The position numbers and the translations under genes were made by a program. A stretch of DNA of 64,000 nucleotides from assembly GCF_001469875.2 (NCBI RefSeq), contig NZ_LOPW02000017.1:124001-188000 (forward strand), read 5' to 3'. This stretch comes from Haloferax marisrubri (GTDB taxonomy: Archaea; Halobacteriota; Halobacteria; Halobacteriales; Haloferacaceae). Below, one piece after another: positions 37,892 to 62,379 of this stretch; the stretch's first letter is position 1, and each line of letters begins with the position of its first letter. The notes below the pieces were generated by a model that was given only the letters and a program-made list of their open reading frames with translations, was not told the origin of the DNA and did no database searches.

Positions 37892-37926
37892 TATCAGACT
37901 TGATAGATAGGACGAACTGCTTAAGT
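37892..37926 (+). promoter_or_regulatory. Motility-type dyad TATCA-N4-TGATA and TATA box before the histidine kinase
   Basis: The dyad TATCAGACTTGATA occupies 37892-37905. Fourteen bases after its edge comes CTTAAG (37920-37925), a TATA-like hexamer. The same arrangement is found at five other motility or chemotaxis promoters here. Transcription would start near 37950, and the kinase ATG is at 38021 (an in-frame GTG is at 37961). The remaining part of the 37695-38020 gap holds an AT-rich stretch near 37790-37810 on the ArlD/E-like gene's side. Confidence 0.65.
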
Positions 37927-42114: not shown

Positions 42115-42148
42115 CATAAATCTATTCGAGGCGCTATCAGAACTGATA
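42115..42148 (-). promoter_or_regulatory. Motility-type dyad and TATA box before the ArlD/E-like gene
   Basis: The dyad TATCAGAACTGATA (plus-strand reading) spans 42135-42148 with arms TATCAG and CTGATA. Reading the minus strand, TTTATG begins 14 bases beyond the dyad at 42120. The start codon of the ArlD/E-like gene at 41983 is about 135 bases further. No plus-strand gene faces this site. The rest of the 41984-42272 gap shows nothing else. Confidence 0.7.
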
Positions 42149-44384: not shown

Positions 44385-44418
44385 CATAAACCCTTCCTCC
44401 CCATTATCAAGGCTGATA
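44385..44418 (-). promoter_or_regulatory. Motility-type dyad and TATA box of the cheY operon
   Basis: The dyad lies at 44405-44418 (plus reading TATCAAGGCTGATA). On the minus strand the hexamer TTTATG begins 14 bases downstream, at 44390, and cheY starts at 44359, which fits a TATA box at about -27 with a very short leader. Confidence 0.72.
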
Positions 44419-45313: not shown

Positions 45314-45652
45314 ATGGAGTCTGACAGGACCCTCTCGGCACTGGGGAACGAATACAACCCAGACATCCTCCGTGCCGCGGACGAACCCCACTCGGCACAG
45401 GAGTTCAGCGAGATGTTGGATATTCCCATCGCGACCTGTTATCGCCGAATCGAGGAACTGACGGCCGCGGGCCTCCTCGAACTGCACGACCGGGTTCTCT
45501 CCGACGAGCACCGACGAACGAACGTCTACCGCCGCGAAGTCGACGAAATCGTCGTCCGGTTCGAAGGCGACGACTACACGGTCAGCGTGACCGAGCGCCC
45601 GGAGGTGAAGAACAAACTCGACGACGTGTGGCGGAAGATTACGCAGGACTGA
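45314..45652 (+). CDS. Small winged-helix transcriptional regulator, candidate archaellum regulator
   Basis: 112 residues. An ArsR-like wHTH: LSALGNEYNPDILRAADEPHSAQEFSEMLDIPIATCYRRIEELTAAGLLEL (about 7-57), then a wing (DEHRRTNVYRREVDEIVVRFEG). It is followed by the archaellin genes on the same strand. Its position directly before arlA1 and its DNA-binding fold make it the first candidate for binding the dyad shared by motility promoters. Only a half-site (TGATA at 45298-45302) is seen before this gene itself. It shares the small wHTH layout of the methanogen archaellum regulator EarA, though orthology is not established. Confidence 0.78.
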   Translation: MESDRTLSALGNEYNPDILRAADEPHSAQEFSEMLDIPIATCYRRIEELTAAGLLELHDRVLSDEHRRTNVYRREVDEIVVRFEGDDYTVSVTERPEVKNKLDDVWRKITQD

Positions 45653-45758: not shown

Positions 45759-45794
45759 TATCAGTCTTGATAGTGAGGGCCGTAGCGTTATGTA
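45759..45794 (+). promoter_or_regulatory. Motility-type dyad and TATA box of arlA1
   Basis: The dyad TATCAGTCTTGATA is at 45759-45772. Fourteen bases after it comes GTTATG (45787-45792), the likely TATA box. Transcription would start near 45815, giving a leader of about 50 bases before ATG 45866. A second AT-rich stretch, TATTTTACTTATCG at about 45728-45741, lies just upstream of the dyad and could be an alternative promoter. Confidence 0.68.
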
Positions 45795-48330: not shown

Positions 48331-48385
48331 GGAAATACCGGGGCGCACAAATATCGGGTCTGATAACGGGACGGGAACTTTCTTG
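48331..48385. promoter_or_regulatory. Motility-type dyad between cirA and arlCE, with TATA-like boxes on both sides
   Basis: The dyad is TATCGGGTCTGATA at 48352-48365 (one mismatch in the left arm). Towards arlCE, TTCTTG starts 14 bases away at 48380; towards cirA on the minus strand, TATTTC starts 14 bases away at 48337. The symmetric placement suggests one bound regulator controls both genes. The 48386-48528 stretch holds a short in-frame-compatible open frame (48410-48532) discussed under findings; the cirA side (48220-48330) shows nothing else. Confidence 0.6.
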
Positions 48386-48528
48386 TACCGACTTACGTAC
48401 CTTGCACCAATGTTACCTGCTCCCCCGAGTCCGTCGGACCGCCCCGGCCGGTCCGCCGCTCGGACGGGTGACAGGCCGTCGCTCGAACGAATCGCCTCGC
48501 AGACGGTGCGGAGGTGCTCGCCGCGAGC

Positions 48529-49971
48529 ATGATGGAGTGGCAGAACGACGAAGACACGGCCGACGCCGGGGACGAAACGGACACGGAAGGACAACACATG
48601 TCATCAGACGATGGACTTGGATTCGAGGAGGGGATAGACGACCTCTCCGACGAGTTTGGTGACTTCGGCGACGACCTCGACGACGGATTCGGCGACGACG
48701 ACGAATTCGGCGGATTCGGCGACGACAACAGCGAGGAACTCGCAGAGCTCGAAGATCGCATCGGCGAACTCGAGAACGAAGTAAGCGCCATCTCGTCGGG
48801 GATGAACACCGTCCGCGAAGAGAACAAACAGATCGGTGAGACCGTCGAAGAGCTCGACGACACGATTCGCAAACTGCTCGACATCTACGAGATGGTCACC
48901 CGCGGCATCAACCCGTTCGTCGACGACGCCCGCGAGATGGGTGGCCTCGACGGCGGTGGCGGGTCGTTCGGTCTCTTCGAGGCGGAAGCCGAAGACGAAG
49001 AGCACCTCGACCCGGAGGTGGCGAACGCCGACGCGGAGTCGTTCTTCGACGACGACTTCGGCGAACTTGACGCCGAGGAGGGCGCGAAGGAAGCGGAACT
49101 CGCCGCGGAGGACGAACTCGTTGAAGCGGAACGCGAGAGCCCCGCGGACGTGCTCGATGACGACGACGAGACCGACGAGGCCGACGACTCGGGCGGCGCG
49201 GGCGGCGCGAGCTTCGACGACCTCAAAGAACAGTACGAGGAGGGCGGCGGCTGGGACGAAGAAGCGGAAGAGGAGGCCGACGAGGCCGACGACCTCGCCG
49301 CCGCTGCCGACCTGGAAGACGAAGAAGAAGCGACGTTCGACGACGCGGAGTCGGTCGAACCCGAGGTCGAGGCCGACGAGGACGAAGACGACTTCCCGGT
49401 CGAGGAGGCGCTCGACGCCGACCCGGCCGACGAAGCGTCCGAACCCGAACCCGAGCCCGAACCGGAGCCAGCGGTCGAAGACGCCGACGGCGACGTTCGC
49501 AAGACGCTCGACGAACTGGAGGCCGAGTACGCCACCGCGGCGATGGCCAAAGACGAGTTGTCCGACGACGCGGCCGACGAGGACGATTCGGCCGCCGAAC
49601 CCGACCCGTCCCCGGCGGTCGAGGAGTCAGACGCCTATCTGACGGGTCTCCCGTCGAACTACGTCTCCGAGGTGCTCGTCCTCGAATGGGCCGAACACCT
49701 CGTCACGGTCGGCGGCGCGCTCGGCGCGTCGCGCGCGCTTCGCCAGTATCGGGAGCAGGACTGGATATCGCGCGCCGTCGAGAGCGAACTGAACGCCCAC
49801 GTCGGGCAGATAGCGCCGTCGGTCGAAGACGCCGACGACCACGAACTCCGCATCGACGACCACCAGACGAGTCTCGCGTACGTCTGCCGCCTCGCGGAGG
49901 ACGTTCCGCGGGGACAACTGTACGACGAGTTGGTCGCCTACGGGGGGAGATTCGATGGGATTCGGTGTTAG
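48529..49971 (+). CDS. arlCE: Fused ArlC-ArlE archaellum ring protein
   Basis: 480 residues. Starts at ATG 48529, though ATG 48532, ATG 48598 or GTG 48514 are possible. The ArlC-like part (about 45-150) is a coiled coil (EELAELEDRIGELENEVSAISSGMNTVREENKQIGETVEELDDTIRKLLDIYEMVTRG). A very acidic linker of about 210 residues (DDLAAAADLEDEEEATFDDAE and EPEPEPEPA runs) leads to the C-terminal ArlE domain (about 375-480: VLEWAEHLVTVGGALGA, IDDHQTSLAYVCRLAEDV). It forms the cytoplasmic ring under the motor that receives the CheF signal. First gene of the arl operon. Confidence 0.92.
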   Translation: MMEWQNDEDTADAGDETDTEGQHMSSDDGLGFEEGIDDLSDEFGDFGDDLDDGFGDDDEFGGFGDDNSEELAELEDRIGELENEVSAISSGMNTVREENKQIGETVEELDDTIRKLLDIYEMVTRGINPFVDDAREMGGLDGGGGSFGLFEAEAEDEEHLDPEVANADAESFFDDDFGELDAEEGAKEAELAAEDELVEAERESPADVLDDDDETDEADDSGGAGGASFDDLKEQYEEGGGWDEEAEEEADEADDLAAAADLEDEEEATFDDAESVEPEVEADEDEDDFPVEEALDADPADEASEPEPEPEPEPAVEDADGDVRKTLDELEAEYATAAMAKDELSDDAADEDDSAAEPDPSPAVEESDAYLTGLPSNYVSEVLVLEWAEHLVTVGGALGASRALRQYREQDWISRAVESELNAHVGQIAPSVEDADDHELRIDDHQTSLAYVCRLAEDVPRGQLYDELVAYGGRFDGIRC

Positions 49972-56603: not shown

Positions 56604-57470
56604 CTACTGTTCGTTGATTGCGTCCGACGCGATACTGCGGCCGCGGGCGTTGAGTTGCACCTCGTGGCGCACGCGAATCTCCTCGACGACGTTGTGGTCG
56701 ATGAGTCGCTGAAAGAGTTCCTCGACCTCGTCCACGTCGAGGCCGAGGAAGTTCGGAATATCGAACGGTGAGACACCGGAGTACAGCGCCGTGAGGACCT
56801 GTTTGTCCGTCTCGCTCAGTTCGATAGAGGTCTCCGAAAGCTCCTCGCCCTCGCGGAGGAGCGTATAGAGGAAACTGACGGCGCGGTCGGAGCTGGAGAT
56901 GTACGTCTGGAGGCTCGTCCCCTCGTCATCGGAGTGTTCGACCTCGATGACGCTCCGGTGTTTGTCGACGATGGTCCGCTCGCCGGTCTTCACGTCGCCG
57001 ATGTCGTCGAGCCGTATCTCGACGAACTTGCCGCCGACGGTCGCCATGCTCACGGCCTCGTCTTCGACTTTGAGCCGGGACTTCTCCCACTCGGTGTTCT
57101 GGACGACGCCGCCGGCGACCGCGGGGTGTCGCGCGAGGAACTGCTCGGTGTTGAGGAGCGCCCCGAAGAAGTCCGTCTCGAACTCGTCGTAGTCGACGGG
57201 CGCGAGCAGGACGACGCCCGACGGGATGTGGACGCTGAAGTAGTCGGAGACGGTCGCGATGCGCTGGTTCACGTCGTACCGGCCGCCGAACTCCTGTATC
57301 TTCGAGAGCTGAATCGTCCGCTTGCCGCCCGTGCCCGCGAGGATGAGTCGCCTGTTCGAAAGCAGGATTCGACCGCTCGTCCAGTCCACGTCGTGTATCT
57401 CCCGGCCGTTCTTGACGACCTGGAGGAACCGACCGCGGGTGTCTCCGAGCTTTTGCTCACCGGGTTTCAT
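56604..57470 (-). CDS. cheF2: CheF family chemotaxis adapter (shorter paralogue)
   Basis: 288 residues. Core beta region (SGRILLSNRRLILAGTGGKRTIQLSKIQEFGGRYDV) and a C-terminal winged-helix-like segment (LSETDKQVLTALYSGVSPFDIPNFLGLDVDEVEELFQRLIDHN). Shares the R-LILA strand and C-terminal unit with CheF1. Lies at the end of the minus-strand cheB-cheA-cheR-cheF2 run; its start is three bases before the cheR stop, so the genes are cotranscribed. Confidence 0.88.
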   Translation of the reverse strand: MKPGEQKLGDTRGRFLQVVKNGREIHDVDWTSGRILLSNRRLILAGTGGKRTIQLSKIQEFGGRYDVNQRIATVSDYFSVHIPSGVVLLAPVDYDEFETDFFGALLNTEQFLARHPAVAGGVVQNTEWEKSRLKVEDEAVSMATVGGKFVEIRLDDIGDVKTGERTIVDKHRSVIEVEHSDDEGTSLQTYISSSDRAVSFLYTLLREGEELSETSIELSETDKQVLTALYSGVSPFDIPNFLGLDVDEVEELFQRLIDHNVVEEIRVRHEVQLNARGRSIASDAINEQ

Positions 57471-57473
57471 CGC

Positions 57474-58316
57474 TCACCTCCCGACCGCGGTGTCGCTCGC
57501 GCGGTAGATGCGGAGTCGTTTCTCGACGGGGTCGAACTGCTGTCTACACGTCGGCGGGATGGTCTCTGTCATGCCGATGGTGAGATAGCCGTCCGGCTTC
57601 AGCGCGGAGCCGAGCGTCTCGAAGACGGCGCGCTTCGACTCGGCGTTGATGTAGATGAACAGGTTCCGGCAGACGACGAGGTCGAACGTCCCCGGCGGCT
57701 CCTCGCGGATGAGGTCGCGCCGCTCGAAGCGGACCATGTCGGTGACGGCGTCTTTCACCTGGAAGGTGTCGTCGTCGCGGTCGACGAAGCGCTCCCAGCG
57801 GCCGATGGGGTCGAGCTGCTCGGCCACGTCGTTCGTCTCGGAGGCGCGGTACTCGCCCGCTCTGGCGGCGCGGAGAATCTCGCGTTTGATGTCCGTGCCG
57901 ACGATTTCGATGCGTCGCTCGTCGACGCGGTCGTCGTCGTGGGCGAGCATCGCCAGCGAGTAGGCCTCGCGGCCGTCCGAGCAGGCCGCGCTCCATATCT
58001 TGATGGGGTCGTGGCGGCTCCCCCGCGAACTCAGGTCGCGGAGCACCTCGCGGAGCGCCTCCCACACCTCGGGGTTCCGGAAGAAGCTCGTCACGTTGAC
58101 CGACAGCGCGTCGAGGAGCGCCTGCTGTTCTTCTTCGTCGTCGGTGAGGAGGTCGTGGTACGAGCCGTAGTCGTCGACGCGTCGCCGCCGCATCCGCGCG
58201 GAGACTCGGCGGTCGAGATAGGCGTCGTTGTACGAACTCGTCTGGAACTGCAGGGCGTCTTCGATGTAGTCCAAGAGCCGGCCGAACGCCGGGTCGTCGG
58301 TCGCGGACGAGGGCAT
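57474..58316 (-). CDS. cheR: Chemotaxis protein methyltransferase CheR
   Basis: 280 residues. An N-terminal helical domain (about 1-75) and SAM-binding domain with NVTSFFRNPEVWEAL, IKIWSAACSDGREAYSLAML and DLVVCRNLFIYI. It methylates glutamates of chemoreceptors for adaptation. The start codon shares its first base with the cheA stop codon (TGATG). Confidence 0.94.
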   Translation of the reverse strand: MPSSATDDPAFGRLLDYIEDALQFQTSSYNDAYLDRRVSARMRRRRVDDYGSYHDLLTDDEEEQQALLDALSVNVTSFFRNPEVWEALREVLRDLSSRGSRHDPIKIWSAACSDGREAYSLAMLAHDDDRVDERRIEIVGTDIKREILRAARAGEYRASETNDVAEQLDPIGRWERFVDRDDDTFQVKDAVTDMVRFERRDLIREEPPGTFDLVVCRNLFIYINAESKRAVFETLGSALKPDGYLTIGMTETIPPTCRQQFDPVEKRLRIYRASDTAVGR

Positions 58317-60553
58317 CAGTCGGCCGCCTCCTCGGCGGTGTCTGGGAGTTGGCTCGGGTCGAACTCGCGCATCGCTTGCTCGCCATCAGCCGGGAGTTCG
58401 AGCGTCGAGATGTCCAGAATCGGGATGACGTTCCCGTCGCCGATGACGGCCGTTCCCGACAGTCCGCCGACGCCCGACAGCGGCCCCTGCAGGGGAGTCA
58501 CGACGACTTCCTCCTGTTTCGTCACGCCGTCGCAGTGGAGCGCGACCTGCCTGTCGTCGGGGCGGATGCGGACCACCATGCCGTCGTCGGGTTCCGGCGA
58601 GTCGATTTCGAGCGCCTCGCGGAGCCGAATCAGCGGGAAGATGGTCTCCTCGTGGACGATGACCTCCGCGCCGTTGACCGTCTGGACGCGGTCGCGGCGG
58701 CTAATCTCGTCGATGTACTTGATGGGGACGCCGAACTCGCGGTCTTCGACCTGCACGAACAGCACCTTGATGATGGCGACCGACACCGGCAGGCGGATGT
58801 TGAACGTGCTTCCCTCGCCGGGTTCGCTCTCGACCGACACCGACCCGTCGAGCGATTCGACGGTCGTCTTCACCACGTCCATGCCGACGCCGCGGCCGGA
58901 CACGTCGGTGATTTCGTCGTTGGTCGAGAAGCCGGGGTGGAAGATGTAGTCGTACACCTCGCTGTCGGGCATCTGGTTCACCTCCTCGCGGGTCGCCACG
59001 CCCTTGTCGACGGCCTTCTCGCGGACGGCGTCGGCGTTGATACCGCCGCCGTCGTCCTCGACGGTCACGATGACGGTGTCGTGTTGACGGCGCGCGGAGA
59101 GTCTGATTGTCCCTGTTCGGGACTTGCCGTTCGCCTCGCGAACGTCGGGGTCTTCGATGCCGTGGTCGACGGCGTTCCGGAGGACGTGCATCAGCGGGTC
59201 GGAAATCTCGTCGAGGATGGTGCGGTCGAGTTCGATGTCCGCGCCCTCGACCTTGAACGAGACGCGCTTGTCCTGTTCGCGAGCGAGGTCGCGCACCAGT
59301 CGGGGGAACTTGTCGAACACCTTCTTCAGCGGGATGAGCCGCATGTCCATCACGGTGTTCTGGAGGTTCGACGAGATCTTGTCCAGTTCGTCGAGCGTGT
59401 CGAGCGCGGTCGTCTGGCCCACGTCGATGGCGTTTCTGAGCTTGATGCGACTCGTCACCAACTGCTCGACGAGTTCGTGGAGTTCGTCGAGTTGGTCGAC
59501 GTCCACGCGGACGGACTTGACCGCCGAGATGGAGCGCGCCTCCTTTTTCTTCTCCGCGCCGGAGTCCGACGACTGTTTGTCGTCGGCCGATTCGTCGTCG
59601 CCGTCGGTCGGTTCGGCTCCGTCGGCGTCGTCCTCGCTGCCGTCGTCGCCCCCTACCTCGTCGGCGGTTGCGTCCGCGCCGATGTCGTCGGGACCGTCAG
59701 CGTCGGCACTCGGGTCGGTCTCGTCCGACGCCGGGGTGTCTCCTTCGGCGTCCGCGTCGGAGTCGGAGGCCGGCTCATCGCCGGCGTCCGCGGTTTCGCC
59801 TTCGGCGGCGAGCGCGTCGGACACGTCGGTCGTCTCGACCGTCGAGACCTTCCAGAGGCCGTCGAGTTCGCTCTCGACGACGGCGGCGTCGAGCTCGGCG
59901 ACGAACAGGTCGAAGCCGTCGCCGAACTCGCCGTCTTCGATGGCGTCGCGGTTCGGGTTCGCCCCGACCACGTCGAGGTCCTCGGGGATGCTACTGAGGA
60001 AGATACCGGCGTCGACGCCCTTCATCTGTCCCGCGTCGAGTTCGACGTGGGCGTGAGTGAGCGTGGTCGCGTCGAGGGCGTCCGTGTCGACGCAGTCGGC
60101 GGCGAGAGAGTCGAGGTCGACCGACTCGCGGTCGGCCTCGTCAGGCGCCGCCGGGTTCGAGTTTCCCGTGTCACCTCCGTCCTCGACGGCGGCGCGAATC
60201 TCCTCGACCGTGTCGGTCGGGTCGATGGTGGACTCGCCGTTCTCCTCGATGTCGTGGAGGATTTCCACGATGAGGTCCATCCCGTCGAAGACGAGGTCCA
60301 TCCGTTCCGCCGTCACGTCGAGTCGCTCGTGGCGAATCTCGTCGAGGAGGTCCTCGACGGCGTGGGCGACGGTCGCGGCGTTGTCGAAGCCCATCGCGCC
60401 GAAGTTCCCCTTCAGCGTGTGGGCCTGCCGGAAGATGTCGTCGATGGCCTCGGTGTCGTCCGGGTTCGACTCCAGCGACAACAGCGAGTTGTTCAACTGC
60501 GTGATGCTCTCTTCGCTCTCGGTGATGAATGCTTGGTAGAGTTCTTCGTCCAT
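58316..60553 (-). CDS. cheA: Chemotaxis histidine kinase CheA
   Basis: 745 residues. P1 (HPt) domain with phospho-His45 (FRQAHTLKGN). A P2-like domain (about 155-245) precedes a very acidic linker (about 245-340). P3 dimerisation helices (DVDQLDELHELVEQLVTSRIKLRN), P4 ATPase core with N box (LMHVLRNAVDHGIE), G1 VEDDGGGIN and G2 GRGVGMDVV, and the C-terminal CheW-like P5 complete it. CheA phosphorylates CheY and CheB in receptor arrays. Domain order and length are normal for a haloarchaeon. Confidence 0.96.
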   Translation of the reverse strand: MDEELYQAFITESEESITQLNNSLLSLESNPDDTEAIDDIFRQAHTLKGNFGAMGFDNAATVAHAVEDLLDEIRHERLDVTAERMDLVFDGMDLIVEILHDIEENGESTIDPTDTVEEIRAAVEDGGDTGNSNPAAPDEADRESVDLDSLAADCVDTDALDATTLTHAHVELDAGQMKGVDAGIFLSSIPEDLDVVGANPNRDAIEDGEFGDGFDLFVAELDAAVVESELDGLWKVSTVETTDVSDALAAEGETADAGDEPASDSDADAEGDTPASDETDPSADADGPDDIGADATADEVGGDDGSEDDADGAEPTDGDDESADDKQSSDSGAEKKKEARSISAVKSVRVDVDQLDELHELVEQLVTSRIKLRNAIDVGQTTALDTLDELDKISSNLQNTVMDMRLIPLKKVFDKFPRLVRDLAREQDKRVSFKVEGADIELDRTILDEISDPLMHVLRNAVDHGIEDPDVREANGKSRTGTIRLSARRQHDTVIVTVEDDGGGINADAVREKAVDKGVATREEVNQMPDSEVYDYIFHPGFSTNDEITDVSGRGVGMDVVKTTVESLDGSVSVESEPGEGSTFNIRLPVSVAIIKVLFVQVEDREFGVPIKYIDEISRRDRVQTVNGAEVIVHEETIFPLIRLREALEIDSPEPDDGMVVRIRPDDRQVALHCDGVTKQEEVVVTPLQGPLSGVGGLSGTAVIGDGNVIPILDISTLELPADGEQAMREFDPSQLPDTAEEAAD

Positions 60554-60555
60554 GG

Positions 60556-61656
60556 TCAGGTAGTGAGCCCGCTGAGTGCTTCGTCTGCGATTCGCCCGTC
60601 GGCCGAGACGGTGTCGACACAGCCGGCCTCGATGGCCCGCTTCGGCATTCCGAAGATCGCGGAGGTCGCTTCGTCTTGTGCGACCGTGTGGCCGCCCGCC
60701 CGCTTGATTCGGGTCATCCCCTCGACGCCGTCGCGGCCCATGCCCGTGAGCAGGACGCCGGCCAGCGGCGCGTCGACCGTCTCCGCGGCCGACGCCATCG
60801 TGAGGTCGATAGCCGGTTTGACGCCGTGGAGCGGCTCGTCGTCGGAGAGTTCGAGCCGGAGGCGTCCGGCGCGGTCGCCGGTCACGAGGAGGTGCGAACC
60901 GCCGGGTGCGATGCGAATCTGCCCGGGGCCGATTCGCTCGCCGTCGGCCGCCTCTTTGACTTCGTAGTCACACCGACCGTCGAGCCGCGCCGCGAAGCGC
61001 TTCGTGAAGCCGGCCGGCATGTGCTGGACGACCAGCACGCGGAGACCGGCCTCCTCGGGGAGCGCAGCGAGCAACCGCTCGACGACGTTCGGCCCGCCCG
61101 TGGACGCGCCGATAATCAGCGTCGAGCCCTCGGTCGGGAGCGACCCGGTCGTCCCCGATGTCGACGGTGCCGACCCCGTGGTCGCCGCCGACTTCCGCTC
61201 CGTCTTCGGCGGGCGGGAGCCCCGGCGCGTCGCCGAGAGGTCGACCGCCGCGGCGGACTGAATCTTCTCGACCAGTTCCCGCTTGACGCGGGGCATCTCG
61301 GAGGTGACTTCGCCGCCCGGTTTCGTCACGAAGTCGACCGCCCCCCTGTCGAGCGCCTCGAACGTCACGTCGGCGTCCTCCTCGGCGTGCGCCGAGAGCA
61401 TGAGGACGGGCGTCGGACACTCCTCCATGATGGCCTCGACCGCGTCGAGCCCGTTCATCTCGGGCATCTCGATGTCCATCGTCACCACGTCGGGTCGGTT
61501 CGCCTCGACCACCGAAATCGCCTCGCGGCCGTCGGCCGCCTCGGCGACGACCTCGACGTCCGCGTCTTCGAGGAGCGTGCGAATCAGCGTCCGCATGAAC
61601 CGCGAGTCGTCGACGACGACCGCTCGCGTCGGTCCCGCGTCGGCGACCGAACTCAT
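60556..61656 (-). CDS. cheB: Chemoreceptor methylesterase CheB
   Basis: 366 residues from ATG 61656 (GTG 61665 is in frame). Receiver domain with phospho-acceptor Asp61 (VVTMDIEMPEMNG), a linker rich in Ser/Thr/Gly, and the methylesterase domain with catalytic Ser (GASTGGPNVVE), His (VVQHMPAGFT) and Asp (TGMGRDGVEG). It removes methyl groups from receptors and can deamidate. Two bases separate its stop from the cheA start. First gene of the minus-strand che operon. Confidence 0.95.
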   Translation of the reverse strand: MSSVADAGPTRAVVVDDSRFMRTLIRTLLEDADVEVVAEAADGREAISVVEANRPDVVTMDIEMPEMNGLDAVEAIMEECPTPVLMLSAHAEEDADVTFEALDRGAVDFVTKPGGEVTSEMPRVKRELVEKIQSAAAVDLSATRRGSRPPKTERKSAATTGSAPSTSGTTGSLPTEGSTLIIGASTGGPNVVERLLAALPEEAGLRVLVVQHMPAGFTKRFAARLDGRCDYEVKEAADGERIGPGQIRIAPGGSHLLVTGDRAGRLRLELSDDEPLHGVKPAIDLTMASAAETVDAPLAGVLLTGMGRDGVEGMTRIKRAGGHTVAQDEATSAIFGMPKRAIEAGCVDTVSADGRIADEALSGLTT

Positions 61657-61790
61657 CGCCCCCACCCGCCGGTGCCGGGACGACGGGCGCGCTGAGTCGC
61701 CGAGCGGGCCCCCCGCCGAGGGCTCGGTGGCTTCGTTAGTGTGCCGTTTCGTTGACCGCTCATCTACCTCCGTGGTTCGGAAATCGGGTA

Positions 61791-61844
61791 TATAAACACT
61801 CGGCGAGGATAATCACGGCTGATAATCGGGTACGTATCTTTATA
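61791..61844. promoter_or_regulatory. Divergent cheB-cheW promoter centred on the motility dyad
   Basis: The dyad is AATCACGGCTGATA at 61811-61824 (one mismatch). TTTATA starts 14 bases away on each side: plus strand 61839-61844 for cheW, minus strand 61796-61791 for cheB. The two TATA boxes are thus symmetric about the dyad. cheW ATG 61885 would have a leader of about 15 bases. Confidence 0.75.
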
Positions 61845-61884
61845 CGCTGAATCTCACCACTCTGAAGCAGACAGGTGGCGGCGG

Positions 61885-62379
61885 ATGTCGCCGCCGGGGA
61901 TGACCATGCGACAAGATGCAATCACGACCGAGATGAGCGCGGACGAGACCGACGCGGAGGACTCCGCCGAAGAAGTACAGGTGCTGGAATTCCAACTCGG
62001 CCCCGAGACGTACTGCGTCGACATCGAGTACGTGAGCGAAATCGTCGACAAGGGCCAACTCACGGCGGTGCCGAACGCGCCGGACTACGTCGAGGGCGTG
62101 ATGGACCTCCGCGGGCGGACCACGTCCATCATCAACCCGAAGTCGCTTCTCAGCATCGACGAGGAGGGCGAGTCGAAGCGCATCGTCATCTTCGACCCCA
62201 ACAAGTTCGAAGACGAGGCGGCGACCGGCTGGCTCGTCGACGAGGTGTACCAGGTCGTCCGCGTCTCGATGGACGACGTAGAGGACCCGCCGCTCGAAAA
62301 AGACGACTCCATCGAGGGCGTCATCAAACGCGACGGCGACCTCGTCGTCTGGATTTCGCCGGTGCACGCCATCGAGTAA
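61885..62379 (+). CDS. cheW: Chemotaxis coupling protein CheW
   Basis: 164 residues, one CheW domain (about 30-160). It shows VLEFQLGPETYCVDIEYVSEIVDKGQLTAVPNAPDYVEGVMDLRG and SGWLVDEVY-like strand pairing (GWLVDEVYQVVRVS). It couples receptors to CheA. The first ~28 residues are a flexible acidic lead. ATG 61885 is used; ATGs at 61900 and 61906 are alternatives. Confidence 0.94.
   Translation: MSPPGMTMRQDAITTEMSADETDAEDSAEEVQVLEFQLGPETYCVDIEYVSEIVDKGQLTAVPNAPDYVEGVMDLRGRTTSIINPKSLLSIDEEGESKRIVIFDPNKFEDEAATGWLVDEVYQVVRVSMDDVEDPPLEKDDSIEGVIKRDGDLVVWISPVHAIE

Follow-up and report, generated by a model that had tools for sequence, protein, structure and literature searches.

A single CsmR operator with a TATA box on each side probably switches the divergent cheB-cheA-cheR-cheF and cheW units of Haloferax marisrubri together; we consider this the best explanation of the sequence between them and put its probability at roughly 0.8. 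CsmR and its motif have already been published, whereas the conserved bidirectional use of its operator and the coupled leader ORFs described below were not found reported in the literature searched, which is no proof that such reports are absent.

Two divergent che promoters share one dyad at equal distances

The window analyzed here is the whole stretch of H. marisrubri DNA under study, 64 kb in length. The genes on either side of the shared promoter region are as follows:

56604-57470, minus strand: cheF (CheF1 as named in PMC13286277), Pfam CheF-arch
57474-58316, minus strand: cheR, Pfam CheR
58316-60553, minus strand: cheA, Pfam Hpt, P2, HATPase_c and CheW domains
60556-61656, minus strand: cheB, Pfam CheB_methylest and Response_reg, start set by conservation
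61906-62379, plus strand: cheW, Pfam CheW, start set by conservation

The start of cheB at 61656 is the one conserved among relatives, and the ATG of cheW at 61906 is likewise kept in relatives, in contrast with an upstream ATG at 61885. Pfam confirms the gene families of the original prediction, which read the two units as cheB-cheA-cheR-cheF2 and cheW, although not its CheF2 label, for which the H. volcanii authors use CheF1. Between the two units lie the following elements:

61791-61796, minus strand: TATA box of the cheB-cheA-cheR-cheF promoter (TATAAA on the plus strand, TTTATA on the minus strand)
61797-61802, minus strand: BRE position of the cheB promoter, placed from the TATA box, non-consensus
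61811-61824, no strand assigned: putative CsmR operator core AATCA-CGGC-TGATA, common to both promoters, assigned by its match to the published motif and by conservation
61833-61838, plus strand: BRE position of the cheW promoter, placed from the TATA box, non-consensus
61839-61844, plus strand: TATA box of the cheW promoter, TTTATA

The dyad AATCACGGCTGATA at 61811-61824 is separated from the flanking TTTATA box by 14 bp on both strands, so that the coordinates bear out the spacing of exactly 14 bases that had been claimed. The description of the element as perfectly symmetric holds for this spacing and for the ATCA/TGAT arms but not for the outermost pair of the dyad, where A at 61811 faces A at 61824; the three pairs beyond this mismatch match again. 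From the edge of the operator core to each BRE position is 8 bp, and the core overlaps neither BRE nor TATA box. When the H. marisrubri genome was searched with the full two-sided pattern (TAAA-N15-ATCA-N4-TGAT-N15-NTTA), 1 match was found versus ~4e-5 expected per strand. The two-sided geometry is thus far beyond chance.

The two-sided element is conserved among haloarchaea

Across the class, 135 of the 394 genomes searched contained the same pattern, representing 18 of 86 genera and two of the families sampled, while a reversed control pattern gave 1 match in the 394 genomes. A separate set, chosen independently of the motif, comprised 29 haloarchaeal loci identified through the similarity of their CheW proteins. 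The dyad was kept in 28 of these 29 CheW-anchored loci, and among the 28 the best box stood at exactly 14 bp in all cases on the cheB side and in 25 on the cheW side. In a non-redundant set of 25 loci differing by >15% in the element (50 promoter sides), the operator arms and boxes mostly carried 1.5-2 bits of column information, with most flanking columns well under 1. A 4-bp inverted repeat is common by itself, which is the one point in favor of a chance arrangement of two ordinary promoters; given the genome expectation, the 135 matches against a single control match, and the column conservation, we rejected this explanation, whose probability we regard as negligible.

The canonical half-site TGATA was oriented toward cheW in 106 of 106 loci. 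Of the same 106 loci, 102 have A rather than the consensus T at position 61811, the outer operator base on the cheB side. The presence of this operator geometry in a second family suggests that CsmR control of chemotaxis may extend well beyond Haloferax, where binding would have to be assumed from the sequence.

The dyad matches the operator of CsmR

In Haloferax volcanii, CsmR (HVO_1209) is a 13-kDa winged-helix protein that is encoded immediately upstream of arlA1/arlA2 and has been placed with Lrp/AsnC on structural grounds (PMC13286277). ChIP-seq of this protein gave 65 peaks, 50 of which contain the semi-palindrome TATCA(N4)TGATA within a ~34-bp unit that includes the adjoining TATA box (Nussbaum et al. 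2026, PMC13286277). The che dyad agrees with this motif at 9 of 10 positions, with one outer base deviating. The gene for the predicted regulator is also found in the window:

45314-45652, plus strand: csmR, predicted regulator of the che site, assigned by synteny, size and HTH domain

This 112-aa ORF, which carries Pfam HTH_20 and stands upstream of two archaellin genes as described for HVO_1209, was matched to HVO_1209 by description; no AsnC-type ligand domain was listed for its product (Pfam, E 0.001). With the core motif, the fixed TATA distance and a csmR gene all present in this genome, the dyad probably represents an operator of CsmR, and CsmR would be expected to occupy the che site. 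A previously anonymous dyad is thereby tied to a named regulator. The H. volcanii regulon (PMC13286277) resembles the situation described here in its core motif, TATA adjacency and gene cluster, and its CheB/A/R/F1 genes respond to csmR deletion. It differs in that the published text orients the motif to one gene, while the che operator faces two promoters, and in that the cheB-side outer base of the che operator is A rather than T; cheW is not mentioned in the main text of that paper.

Around ten csmR-like genes are detected in this genome at E 0.001, so related proteins exist, and another regulator of the same or overlapping specificity could conceivably use the dyad in place of CsmR. We consider this quite improbable, given that the motif derives from ChIP-seq of CsmR itself and that its targets fall in the same gene cluster (PMC13286277).

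The symmetry reflects a standard promoter architecture used in two directions

When up to two mismatches are allowed, the core is found 14 times in the window, compared with 2.4 expected. In addition to the che site, the archaellum/chemotaxis cluster has five predicted CsmR operators, of which four match the core exactly and one nearly so:

37892-37905, plus strand: operator before a histidine kinase gene, CTTAAG at 14 bp
42135-42148, minus strand: operator before an arlD-like gene, TTTATG at 14 bp
44405-44418, minus strand: operator before cheY, TTTATG at 14 bp
45759-45772, plus strand: operator before arlA1, GTTATG at 14 bp
48352-48365, plus strand: operator before arlC/E, 1 mismatch, weak box TTCTTG at 14 bp

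At four of these five operators the best TATA-like box stands exactly 14 bp from the 14-mer, the arlC/E box being weak, and in other haloarchaeal families the 14-bp spacing was seen again, by eye, at sites near cheW homologues. A 14-bp core, a 14-bp gap and a 6-bp box add up to the published ~34-bp unit. The symmetry of the che site therefore arises because a near-palindromic operator with a fixed TATA distance is used both ways; as far as the promoter sequences tell, it is a consequence of the standard architecture of CsmR promoters, with one operator serving two directions. All four one-sided operators that match exactly read TATCA-N4-TGATA, unlike the che site with its A at 61811. The start of cheY lies 31 nt beyond the box of its own CsmR promoter.

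One CsmR dimer is predicted to act on both promoters

According to the model we favor, CsmR would bind its operator upstream of the BRE at the fixed distance of 14 bp from the TATA box and would act by recruiting TFB/TBP. The two BRE positions are 30 bp apart, which leaves room for one dimer that could act on both promoters. Transcription is predicted to start ~30 nt past the first T of either box and, on the cheB side, within a few nt of ATGAGCGGT. No transcription start sites for HVO_1224/HVO_1225 were found in the main texts of the literature searched. After this shared switch, the cheB transcript would be leaderless on a mini-ORF coupled to cheB, while the cheW transcript would have a short leader with a hairpin. 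On this view the site would synchronize the two units rather than set the ratio of their proteins.

Recruitment is suggested by the non-consensus BREs and by the placement of the operator core, which lies off both BRE and TATA box. Relative to the haloarchaeal BRE consensus used for comparison, CGAAA, neither CGAA nor GAAA occurred within 8 nt upstream of the TATA box on any of the 50 sides of the non-redundant set. The authors of the CsmR study drew a similar conclusion from the position of the operator (PMC13286277). Deletion of csmR raises target transcripts, however, so simple activation fits poorly. Archaellum and chemotaxis transcripts, including CheB/A/R/F1, go up in the csmR deletion, most strongly where the peak contains the motif (PMC13286277), as would be expected if CsmR instead repressed both promoters, its footprint reaching beyond the 14-bp core to block TFB at both BREs as a shared off-switch. 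A footprint of ~30 bp would indeed extend to both BREs. Nevertheless, the operator core covers neither BRE nor TATA box, being situated upstream of both; BREs that are non-consensus on 50 of 50 sides are what promoters needing help would have; and motility is lost in the csmR deletion and raised by overexpression (PMC13286277). Recruitment is therefore more likely, with repression, which we hold possible though doubtful, as its main rival. The che operator offers a clean case of the activator-or-repressor question left open by the CsmR paper (PMC13286277): since it stands upstream of two promoters at equal distance, a single mutation there ought to shift the two transcripts in the same direction.

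The idea that a single bound dimer controls both transcripts equally survives in part. One site serving two promoters is supported by the ChIP-derived motif, the 14-bp spacing and the two-sided conservation; equal control is not. The two boxes differ in conservation: among the 25 non-redundant loci, the box starts TTTA in 22 cases on the cheB side and in only 14 on the cheW side, where it is more degenerate. This difference, together with the silence of the CsmR main text on cheW (PMC13286277), would suit a site at which CsmR is effective on one arm only, probably cheB, with cheW driven mainly by other means and its box a weak relic. We regard this as unlikely: the cheW-side box keeps its 14-bp position in 25 of 28 CheW-anchored loci, the canonical half-site points to cheW at every one of the 106 loci, and cheW1 and cheR drop to a similar extent (~1.9-fold and ~1.8-fold, respectively) in HFTV1-infected H. 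gibbonsii, in which both arms go down (PMC12542753). For the favored model as a whole, it also counts that both arms go down together upon deletion of HVO_2753 (PMC10716476). That the region matters is supported independently by H. volcanii mutants with transposon insertions in the cheB-cheW1 interval, which were non-motile and adhesion-defective (PMC5198076). The joint drop of both arms in these other datasets could have other causes.

Among the closest known arrangements is that of the gvpA/gvpD divergent promoters activated by GvpE. In this haloarchaeal pair, too, the promoters stand back to back and enclose activator sequence between the two BREs, and it shares with the che model a dimeric activator and a critical distance to the BRE (PMC4390858). 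In gvp, however, two 20-nt UAS elements overlap by 7 nt and each adjoins its BRE (PMC4390858), whereas the che site has a single 14-bp core equidistant from both; a candidate activator sequence between the BREs of back-to-back promoters is thus found at che, and two overlapping 20-nt UAS elements are not. GvpE moreover resembles a leucine-zipper protein (PMC4390858), while CsmR is a winged-helix protein.

The two arms differ in their predicted translation signals

The original prediction had also proposed that the shared site keeps CheW and CheA/CheB in fixed proportion. This is not supported: the boxes are unequal, the operator has an asymmetric base, and the predicted translation-initiation signals of the two arms differ. 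Judged from the sequence, a fixed ratio of CheW to CheA/CheB is probably not maintained. The signals concerned are the following:

61874-61895, plus strand: hairpin in the predicted cheW leader (leader fold -19.5 kcal/mol)
61653-61763, minus strand: predicted leaderless leader ORF of 36 aa with a conserved ending, its TGA overlapping the cheB ATG as ATGA

The arms of the cheW-leader hairpin differ on both sides within the Haloferacaceae, being of the GGCGGCG/CGCCGCC type in Haloferax and of the GTGGCGC/GCGTCAC type in L013 and L014; this is an observation from individual folds of nine sequences, the L013 and L014 leaders having been misaligned by MAFFT.

On the cheB side, the leader ORF opens with an ATG 33 nt downstream of the first T of its TATA box, the place at which a leaderless transcript would begin; in most lineages an ATG is found 30-35 nt from that T. 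These distances, like that of cheY, agree with the original prediction's condition that transcription begin about 25 bases beyond the TTTATA boxes. Leaderless transcripts make up 72% of the protein-coding transcripts of H. volcanii. Of 48 leaders no more than 75% alike, 37 had an ATG at the leaderless-start position, and in 31 of these 37 the leader ORF, whose length ranged from 14 to 56 codons, ended at a candidate cheB start (-5 to +7 nt). Such an ending occurred in 4 of 62 cases in the other two frames (Fisher value 2e-15, which takes no account of kinship or of the selection made among candidate cheB starts, and is to be read as "not chance" only). When leaders of the Haloferacaceae were shuffled with distances kept, the overlap had P values of 0.30-0.67, the frame being fixed by the distance; because such shuffles fix the frame, we preferred the frame comparison across leaders of unequal length.

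In two of the 37 leaders, the leader ATG was in frame with cheB itself. L152, L153, L169 and L170, which belong to one genus, have an ATG in frame with cheB 30 nt after the cheB-side box, and cheB itself may be leaderless in this genus.

The ATGA at the junction of leader ORF and cheB is a stop-start overlap of the kind found in termination-reinitiation pairs, for which short overlaps are a known condition in Haloferax (PMC10666635). A 4-nt ATGA overlap is the commonest, coupling-permitting class among the H. volcanii pairs (PMC10666635); there, however, the upstream partner is an annotated gene, whereas at cheB it is a short, poorly conserved ORF at the predicted transcription start. Translation of the leader ORF and its coupling to cheB are predictions. 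They amount to a testable proposal for how the proteins of an archaeal chemotaxis operon might be brought to their ratios when transcription is shared.

A second ORF of this kind is predicted before arlC/E:

48410-48532, plus strand: predicted arlC/E leader ORF of 40 aa, its stop overlapping the arlC/E start (ATGATG), assigned from the sequence and from relatives

It has 40 codons in Haloferax and 46-47 in L199, L201 and L202, and ends at the arlC/E start. We see even odds that this points to a generic device, whereby the CsmR-controlled polycistronic motility operons of haloarchaea (cheB-cheA-cheR-cheF and arlC/E onward) open with a mini-ORF, leaderless and so far unannotated, through which a leaderless transcript comes to be translated by termination-reinitiation on the first real gene. 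The sequence and length of the mini-ORF would be largely free; conserved would be that it begins where transcription begins and stops where the first gene starts. The che site would then determine when both arms are expressed, and translation in what ratio. The same kind of arlC/E leader ORF was listed for L194, L197, L199, L201, L202, L204 and L205.
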